Shown piece after piece: positions 37,622-39,926 of a stretch of DNA of 64,000 nt. Both the position numbers and the translations under genes were made by a program. Source of the DNA: Haloarcula hispanica ATCC 33960 (lineage in GTDB: Archaea; Halobacteriota; Halobacteria; Halobacteriales; Haloarculaceae); the NCBI RefSeq assembly GCF_000223905.1, contig NC_015948.1:248001-312000 (forward strand), written 5' to 3'. The stretch's first letter is position 1, and every line of letters begins with the position of its first letter. Under the pieces are notes generated by a model. The model saw only the letters and a list, made by a program, of their open reading frames with translations, was not told where the DNA came from and did no database searches.

Positions 37622-39223
37622 ATGACTGGGACGAACGTGCGAGCGAGGGTTGTGACCCACTACAGCCGACGAATCGGGGTCGCAATCGGTGTGACGCTCG
37701 CAGTCACGCTCGCGTTCGGGGCTGTGTTTGCCGCGCACGCGGCAAATCAGGGGGCTGGACTCGCGGCCATTTCTGGGACGCTGTTCGTGGTAACGCTCAA
37801 TCTCGGACTGCTCGCGATTGTTCTGGCCGGGAACGCGGCGGTCGAACTCCGGCGCCTGACCGACGCCGCGACAGCTATCGAGGACGGCGACCTTGAGACT
37901 AGTCCGGACGTCGACCGCGCGGACGAGTTCGGTCGCCTCGCATCGGCTTTTGACAGTATGCGCCGCTCTCTCAGCGACGCGTTCGACGAGTCCGAAACCG
38001 CACGTAAGGAGGCCGAACAGGCCAAGCAAGACGCACAGGCGGCGCGACAGGAGGCCGAGGAGTTCAACGAAACGCTCCTTGATCATGCGACGGACATCGG
38101 TGACGCAATGACGGCCGCGGCTGACGGCGATTTCACCCGAAGTCTCGACACAGACACCGGTGTCGATGCCGTCGAACGGATCTCGGTCGCCTACGAGGAG
38201 ATGGCCGACGGCCTCTCGGAAACTGTCGTCGATATCCGGCAGTTCGCAACTGATGTTGAGGAAGCAAGCACGGCCGTCGCTGCCGACGCGACAGAGGTCG
38301 AGGAACTCAATCAGTCTCTTGCCGTCGATATCCGGGAACTGGCCGGCGATATCGAAGCACAGGCAACCCAGCTCGAAACGGCCATCGAAGAGACGAACGA
38401 CCTGTCCGCGACCGTCGAAGAAGTCGCCTCGACGACTGACGAAGTCGCTCGACAGGCCGGGGAAGCCGCGAACGTAGGCGCGACCGGGACAGACCGTACG
38501 GCAGAGGCCATTGAGGCCATCGAAGGAATCGAAACCGCTGTGACCCACCTCGACGAGTTGGTGACTGACTTGGATGACCGCATGGACGACGTCGCGGCCA
38601 CGACCGGGCTGATAGATGATATCGCCGAGCAGACGAATATGCTCGCACTGAACGCCAACATCGAGGCCTCACACGCCGGTGACGGCGGTGACGGGTTCGC
38701 TGTCGTCGCCGAGGAAGTCAAGACGCTCGCGGAGGAAACCCAGGCGGCGATCGACGAGATCGAGAGTATCGTTGAGGGGGCTCGCGGGGAAGTCGACGAG
38801 GTGGCCGACGAGATGGACCACACCAGAGAGCGCATCGACGCGGGCGTTACCACGGTCAATCAGGTCGGTGACGCCGTCGAGCGGTTGACTGACACTGTCG
38901 ACGATGTCGACGCTGCGATGGCCGAGATCTCACGGGCGACCGACGACGGTGCCAGCGCGACCGAGGAACTGGCCGCGACTATCGACACCGTCGGCGAGGT
39001 CGCCAGCGACGTCGCCGAACAGTCCCACGACCTGGCCGATACGGCCCAGGAAACCGCCGAAACGATGAGTGCCGTCCGGCAGCGGGCAGAGGACCTCTCG
39101 ACACGGACCCGAGAACTCATCGATCGACTCGATGCGTTCGAGACGCGGGCAGTCGGTCACGGTGGAACGGACGGGGCGACACCGACCGCCGGACAACAGC
39201 GCGTCGGGGGCGACGATGATTAG
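37622..39223 (+). CDS. Halobacterial transducer (Htr), two-TM methyl-accepting protein without external domain
   Basis: A 533-residue chemotaxis/phototaxis transducer. TM1 (about 18-41) and TM2 (about 47-70) are joined by a loop of only about six residues, so there is no extracellular sensor domain. A HAMP region follows (about 70-125), then a second HAMP-like block (about 155-205), coiled-coil methylation helices, and the conserved hairpin tip [43 protein letters not shown] that contacts CheA/CheW. This form is like the transducers of sensory rhodopsins, which take their signal from a partner in the membrane. Its stop overlaps by 8 bases the start of the opsin-like gene, its probable partner. 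There are no che genes nearby. Confidence 0.9.
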
Positions 39224-39926
39224 CGGGTCGGCCGTCTACGAGATCGCCGCGGTCCTGCTGGCCGTCGCGGCCGTCGTGCTCTCTGGGTGGCTCAGGCGCA
39301 TTCCGTCGTCCCACCGACACTACTGCTACCCGGTGGTGGCCGTCGTCGGGATTTCGGCCGTGACGACCGCGCTGACGGCGGCCGGCGTCCTGCCAGTGCC
39401 CGGGTCCCAGCTCACTGTCCCGAACATCGTCGACGACTTCGTCGCGTACACGGTGCTGTGGACGCTCACGGTCGCGATAGCCGGGGCGTCCCGCCGAACG
39501 TTGGCTGTCGCCGCCGCCATCCCGGCGGTACAGGTCATCGCTTTCAACGGCGGGACGATCGTCGGCGGCGCTATCGGACTCGTCGGCTTTGGCGTCCTCG
39601 TTATCGGCCAGCTCCTGCTTGCGTACCTGTTACTCGGCCCAGTCTGGCGTCGTGCGGCCGACCTGCCCGACGACCAGCGGCTCCTGCACTGGAAGTCCCG
39701 GAACCTCCTGTTGTTCCTCATCGGGATGCTCATCGCCTACTCGTTGCTTGCGGTTGCGGACGTGTTCGACCCGTTCGTGTTGACCGTCATCAGCGAGTAC
39801 ATGGGGCTCCTGATCCGCGTCGGCTTCGCCGGGTTCCTGTTTGCCAACGTCGATGCTATCGCGGTCGACCGGACCGGCTTTGCCGACGTAGCATCGGAGT
39901 CGGCTGGCGCTCAGCACGCTGATTGA
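39216..39926 (+). CDS. Lysine-less microbial opsin homologue, likely partner of the adjacent transducer
   Basis: A 236-residue seven-helix protein (helices about 8-26, 37-57, 70-90, 95-111, 118-141, 162-181, 187-210). It aligns end to end with sensory rhodopsins: VVGISAVTT (helix B), PNIVDDF (helix C), LLLGPVWRR (end of helix E), KSRNLL (start of helix F) and [10 protein letters not shown] (helix G), where sensory rhodopsins have TKVGFGF. The retinal-binding Lys is Arg201. Other changes, in bacteriorhodopsin numbering: Arg82 to Asn70, Trp86 to Asp74, Trp182 to Ile169, Tyr185 to Leu172, Pro186 to Ile173, Trp189 to Ser176 and Asp212 to Gly197; only the Asp85 equivalent (Asp73) remains. It should not bind retinal covalently. 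The start overlaps the transducer stop (ATGATTAG), so coupled translation is likely. Confidence 0.82.

Follow-up and report, generated by a model that had tools for sequence, protein, structure and literature searches.

The question raised by this locus is what an opsin homologue that lacks the Schiff-base lysine does beside a transducer of the kind that partners sensory rhodopsins (Htr). The window (the whole stretch of DNA that was analysed, 64,000 nucleotides) comes from Haloarcula hispanica, whose 3.89 Mb genome (G000) encodes retinal-forming enzymes and three canonical rhodopsins, one of which adjoins an Htr. The pair and its key codons are listed in Table 1. The start of the opsin-related protein (ORP) gene lies inside the last codons of the Htr gene, with an 8-bp overlap, ATGATTAG; the boundaries of both genes and the overlap had been given exactly in the earlier note on this DNA. 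Pfam and AlphaFold2 give the Htr an architecture of TM1, short loop, TM2, HAMP and MCP signalling domain. In the AlphaFold2 model of its first 150 residues, the N-terminal helices span residues 14-42 and 46-87. Because these are nearly contiguous, the Htr has no sensor domain outside the membrane, as that note had read from its two helices and short loop.

Table 1. Coordinates in the window of the Htr-ORP gene pair and of codons discussed in the text.
Feature	Position	Strand	Evidence and remarks
Htr, cognate partner of the ORP (533 aa)	37622..39223	+	Pfam HAMP E=1.5e-12, MCPsignal E=7e-36; AlphaFold2 helices
Group A ORP (236 aa), an opsin homologue of seven helices in which the Schiff-base lysine is missing	39216..39926	+	phmmer/HMM to SRII, AlphaFold2, Foldseek, tree
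Codon of Htr Asn60, NpHtrII Asn74 equivalent (partner of SRII Tyr199)	37799..37801	+	Asn 45/54, His 9/54 in group A transducers; contact per PMC3274258
Codons of Asp73 and Asp74 (SRII D75, W76), likely charge partner of Arg201	39432..39437	+	Acid at one or both positions in group A 56/57, group B 0/23
Codon of Tyr78 (SRII T80)	39447..39449	+	Invariant in group A, 57/57
Codon of Tyr195 (SRII Tyr199), Htr-binding contact	39798..39800	+	Kept in every sensory rhodopsin and ORP surveyed
Codon of Arg201, which replaces the Schiff-base lysine (SRII K205, BR K216)	39816..39818	+	Arg in 57/58 clade members

A small HalOD1-domain protein is encoded at 37117-37434, between an aminotransferase gene and the Htr. 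This gene is absent or very divergent in some carriers of the pair, yet present in non-carriers, so we place it outside the unit. The region 41951-43399, directly 3′ of ligA and on the same strand as ligA, encodes response-regulator receiver and PAS domains.

The ORP is homologous to SRII in sequence and in fold. Residues 7-217 match NpSRII (phmmer against PDB, E=2.5e-7), and a profile built from 38 proteins of its clade (group A, see below) matches SRII at E=3e-23. The AlphaFold2 model of the protein alone (mean pLDDT 91.7) finds its best Foldseek matches in the crystal structures of SRII and SRII/HtrII, with a TM score of about 0.89 on target. These searches bear out the earlier description of seven helices aligning along their length with sensory rhodopsins. 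An unrelated seven-helix family is ruled out, as both profile and fold searches landed on SRII. The Pfam Bac_rhodopsin model (PF01036) found no match in the H. hispanica ORP itself. This looks like a sensitivity effect, since in the wider alignment of 94 proteins PF01036 matches 48; a routine Pfam scan would therefore overlook the ORP.

Canonical SRI and SRII carry the Schiff-base lysine in helix G, where the ORP has arginine (K205 replaced by R201). Alignment to NpSRII further revealed replacement of R72 by N70, W76 by D74, W171 by I169, Y174 by L172, P175 by I173, W178 by S176 and D201 by G197, confirming Arg201 and all the changes previously listed under BR numbering. W76, W171, Y174 and W178 are all present in 16/16 lysine-bearing sensory rhodopsins; the ORP has D, I, L and S. 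The counter-ion Asp (BR D85, SRII D75), which the earlier note did not mention, is retained as Asp73.

Proteins of this kind have been described before. Becker et al. (2016, PLoS One; PMC4915679) described 48 lysine-less opsin homologues from haloarchaea, which fall into two groups, and termed them opsin-related proteins. Their group A has Arg at the lysine position, W76 replaced by D, Y174 by L and W178 by Ala, a lost retinal pocket and a kept Tyr199, and 15 of the 16 published members adjoin a HAMP/MCP transducer. Haloarcula amylolytica appears in their species list and tree, and an aminotransferase, a signal transducer and an ORP are named in the legend of their gene-context figure. ORP transcripts were detected, ORP proteins were undetected in native cells, and a purified group A ORP of Halorubrum distributum formed no retinal pigment. 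The authors proposed non-light taxis and left an alternative chromophore possible (PMC4915679). We found no later paper giving an ORP function or stimulus in the open-access literature, ten years after that description.

The H. hispanica pair is a confirmed orthologue of published group A, already known and no new kind. It shares the SRII-homologous fold, Arg201, the pocket changes D74, L172 and S176, and the adjacent HAMP/MCP Htr; the assignment is by shared clade with the H. amylolytica orthologue. The earlier note had implied that no haloarchaeal case was described. That does not hold, as group A, its Arg, its Htr, H. amylolytica and the idea of non-light taxis were all in the 2016 paper (PMC4915679). 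Nothing essential distinguishes the H. hispanica ORP from published group A: the acids D73 and D74 are both present, W178 has become Ser instead of Ala, and Gln106 takes the place of the Met of Halorubrum at the V108 position.

To place the pair among its relatives, we searched 391 genomes of the class, extracted 100 loci and built an alignment and a tree. Group A forms a single clade (support 100/99), which includes the orthologous ORP of H. amylolytica JCM 13557 (L003, 99% identical). At the Schiff-base lysine position the 58 clade members have 57 Arg, 1 Ser and 0 Lys, so relatives that keep the lysine, which the earlier note had thought worth seeking, do not occur in the clade. Tyr78, Lys160, Arg162, Asn163, Leu164, Tyr195 and Arg201 are invariant in all 57 Arg members. 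The gene pair is likewise conserved, with an Htr directly upstream of the ORP in 54 of 57 members and an overlap of mostly 8 or 4 bp. The three without an adjacent Htr comprise one at a contig edge and two lone copies. The lone copies are L062 (G098) and L084 (G351), and both genomes own a second group A ORP with an Htr.

No third gene conserved beside the pair was found across the group A clade; ligA and the aminotransferase gene are shared as neighbours only by members of the family to which the window belongs, where the site is fixed. Within Haloarcula, Htr and ORP occur together in 7/32 genomes, and none of the 32 was found with the Htr alone or the ORP alone. In 22 Haloarcula genomes the aminotransferase or HalOD1 gene is followed immediately by ligA, where carriers have the pair. 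Given that both genes or neither are present, and that ligA occupies the carrier site in these 22, the pair is gained and lost as one block in Haloarcula. By simple counting, dN/dS is about 0.2-0.5, with dN < dS in every pair compared, and the ORP is constrained but fast-evolving. Since such a dN/dS is high for a protein under constraint, and since presence is patchy, the function of the pair is dispensable. One group A ORP is broken into two reading frames (L101, G152:C1:2929412-2930100) and a partial second copy occurs in another genome (L080, G224:C69); both are signs of local loss or duplication.

Binding contacts of the SRII-HtrII type are retained in group A and the light relay is gone. 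Binding of SRII to HtrII is decided by Tyr199-Asn74 and Thr189-Glu43/Ser62, and Thr204 hydrogen-bonds Tyr174 in SRII, both residues mattering for phototaxis (PMC3274258). The H. hispanica pair has a cognate Htr and both residues of the first contact (Tyr195 and Htr Asn60). Across group A, the Tyr199 equivalent is kept in 57/57 ORPs, and in the 54 Htrs the Asn74 equivalent is either Asn (45) or His (9). In a small control, three other Haloarcula Htrs aligned by eye, the Asn74-equivalent residue is absent. Position 189 is Asp in 49 of 57 group A ORPs, and Tyr174 and Thr204 are both replaced by Leu/Ile in nearly all. The text of PMC4915679 treats D189 as a residue through which NpSRII contacts the Htr; residue 189 is Thr both in the NpSRII sequence and in PMC3274258, and Asp at 189 is the residue of most ORPs rather than of NpSRII.

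With the SRII-HtrII of Natronomonas pharaonis the pair shares the fold (TM about 0.89), the order Htr-opsin with little or no gap and the Tyr199/Asn74 contact, and its Htr, like NpHtrII, is two-helix without a large outside domain. Unlike NpSRII, the ORP is without the lysine, the retinal-lining tryptophans and the Tyr174-Thr204 relay, and its R72 and D201 are replaced.

The residues around the former Schiff base differ between clades. At SRII positions 72-75-76-201-205, all 16 lysine-bearing sensory rhodopsins have R-D-W-D-K, group B ORPs have R-G-Y-D/E-L (or F, V, I), and a further clade, R2 (described below), has R-D/E-Y-D-R. Group A is variable at these positions; 56 of its 57 proteins carry an acid at position 75 or 76, as against 0/23 in group B. 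Across the clades, Arg205 is accompanied by an acid nearby and Leu205 by Gly75. Within group A, an acid at 75 occurs in 7/8 proteins without an acid at 76 versus 17/49 with one (Fisher p=0.007, from few independent events). This association of Arg205 with a nearby acid, and of Leu205 with Gly75, suggests that Arg201 may be neutralised by Asp73/Asp74, much as the protonated Schiff base is by the rhodopsin counter-ion.

Several carriers of the pair have no detectable retinal synthesis. Six of 54 carrier genomes (G391, G137, G058, G351, G026 and G145) have neither a Bac_rhodopsin match (E<=1e-15) nor a BCD (Brp/Blh) match (E<=1e-5). In five of these six the Htr-ORP pair is intact and overlapping; G351 has one pair and one lone ORP. 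CheA (H-kinase_dim) was detected in 52 of 53 carriers and in 249 of 338 non-carriers (Fisher p=1.2e-5, uncorrected for relatedness, with several of the H-kinase_dim matches sitting close to the cut-off). The CheA match not found in G351, despite its Htr-ORP pair, may be a threshold effect.

In combination, co-inheritance, the kept binding contacts, the lost light relay, carriers without a detectable retinal-forming enzyme and co-occurrence with CheA give good support to a retinal-independent receptor-transducer unit. We consider that the H. hispanica pair is probably a seven-helix receptor subunit that works without retinal, together with a dedicated Htr, using the old SRII-HtrII interface. 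In this respect the proposal of the earlier note, a signalling unit without covalent retinal, stands; the novelty it implied does not. Counted against the receptor are the 3/57 ORPs without an adjacent Htr, the G351 pair without a CheA match, the high dN/dS and the patchy distribution of the pair.

Such a receptor would lie against the Htr hairpin in the manner of SRII, with helices F/G and Htr TM2 making the contact. A stimulus other than light, most likely a small molecule or an ion, would reach the former retinal space, which would now hold a buried Arg201-Asp73/74-Tyr78 cluster, and would shift the conformation of the ORP. TM2 of the Htr would then pass the change to HAMP, which would signal to CheA/CheW and so to the archaellum. 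The ancestral photoactive site may even have been turned into a permanent buried charge switch, in which Arg201 stands where the protonated Schiff base was and is paired with Asp73/Asp74 and Tyr78. A change of ligand, ion, protonation or membrane voltage would break or shift this pair and drive the unchanged SRII-HtrII-type interface. The switch fits the finding that the acid at 75/76 is kept with Arg205 and that both are lost in Leu-bearing group B; we offer it tentatively, as a possibility that we rather doubt.

The main rival to the receptor is that the ORP does not sense at all and is a fixed structural or tuning subunit, which holds the Htr hairpin in one signalling state or places the Htr in the receptor array, while other inputs, such as membrane state via TM1-TM2 or HAMP, are integrated by the Htr. 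Tyr195, K160-R162-N163-L164 and position 189 are candidate binding or packing sites and not pocket residues, the dN/dS of 0.2-0.5 is compatible with such a role, and a ligand for the ORP is not known. However, the invariant Arg201 and Tyr78 and the acid at 75/76 align to the former retinal site, off the Htr face, and a scaffold would not obviously need them. We regard this explanation as unlikely.

A photoreceptor with another or a non-covalent chromophore (retinal without a Schiff base, a carotenoid or another pigment) would make use of the SRII fold and the Htr pairing, was left possible by Becker et al. (2016; PMC4915679), and could draw in H. hispanica on the retinal-forming enzymes of a host with three rhodopsins. 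The four pocket aromatics are nonetheless all replaced in the ORP, the published group A protein formed no pigment with retinal (PMC4915679), and the six carriers noted above have no detectable retinal-forming enzyme or Bac_rhodopsin, which leaves such a photoreceptor very improbable. We give slighter credence to a regulator of canonical sensory rhodopsins that damps phototaxis through mixed complexes. There is a precedent in SRM, whose expression in Halobacterium salinarum dampens SRI/SRII responses (PMC6450946), and the host has three canonical rhodopsins, including the one adjoining an Htr; against this, the ORP has its own dedicated Htr and the same six carriers are without any canonical rhodopsin match. 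Finally, the patchy presence, the frame-broken copy in G152 and the fragment in G224 could be taken for a decaying, pseudogene-like SRII copy carried with its transducer, or the Arg for a sequencing error at the lysine, but this has a negligible probability and is already contradicted, since it would need dN/dS near 1 and scattered substitutions at 205, and the frames are intact, dN is below dS in every comparison, other positions are specifically invariant, no clade member bears the lysine, and Arg is fixed over many genera; isolated decay or a sequencing error at this position is ruled out.

Among type 1 opsins, it is the ORPs that argue for a general receptor role, a part played for animal opsins by GPCRs. 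The locus is a tractable test case, in a Haloarcula with CheA, its own rhodopsins and a single group A pair; in close relatives the same site is without the pair, and the invariant residues to mutate are few. Type 1 opsins that lost the retinal lysine also include the marine-bacterial Rh-noK and the freshwater FArhodopsins; these differ from the ORP in having no Htr partner, and their tandem neighbour is a functional pump or a flotillin gene (PMC10308929).

Group B ORPs resemble group A in being lysine-less opsin homologues, many of which adjoin an Htr. They differ in having Leu or another hydrophobic residue at 205, Gly75 and Tyr76, and in keeping R72 and D201/E201. The H. hispanica ORP has R201 and N70 at the positions of the hydrophobic residue and R72, and falls outside the B clade.

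Clade R2 fits neither published ORP group as described. It has Arg at 205 and was found in 7 genomes, all from a single other family of the order (L107 3456-4217 on the minus strand, L108, L109, L112, L114, L116 and L121). R2 keeps SRII R72, D75 (Glu in one), D201, Y174, T204 and Y199 and changes W76 to Y and W178 to G; its opsin gene overlaps by 4 bp that of an Htr of ~770 aa with a ~240-residue outside domain. The best tree separates group A and R2, but joining them is compatible with the AU test (p=0.206), so we do not claim a convergent origin of Arg in the two clades. The branching of group A, group B and canonical opsins has a support of only 70/89 in our tree; all ORPs are monophyletic according to Becker et al. 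(2016; PMC4915679).

Four opsin homologues have His at the lysine position (L130 3500-4249 on the plus strand, L134, L136 and L144), and in three of them the Htr is downstream, not upstream. Some group B ORPs occur two per locus, with one Htr between or beside them (L105, L106, L111 and L146), and several group B loci have Htr-to-ORP gaps of about 87-317 bp, with no overlap.
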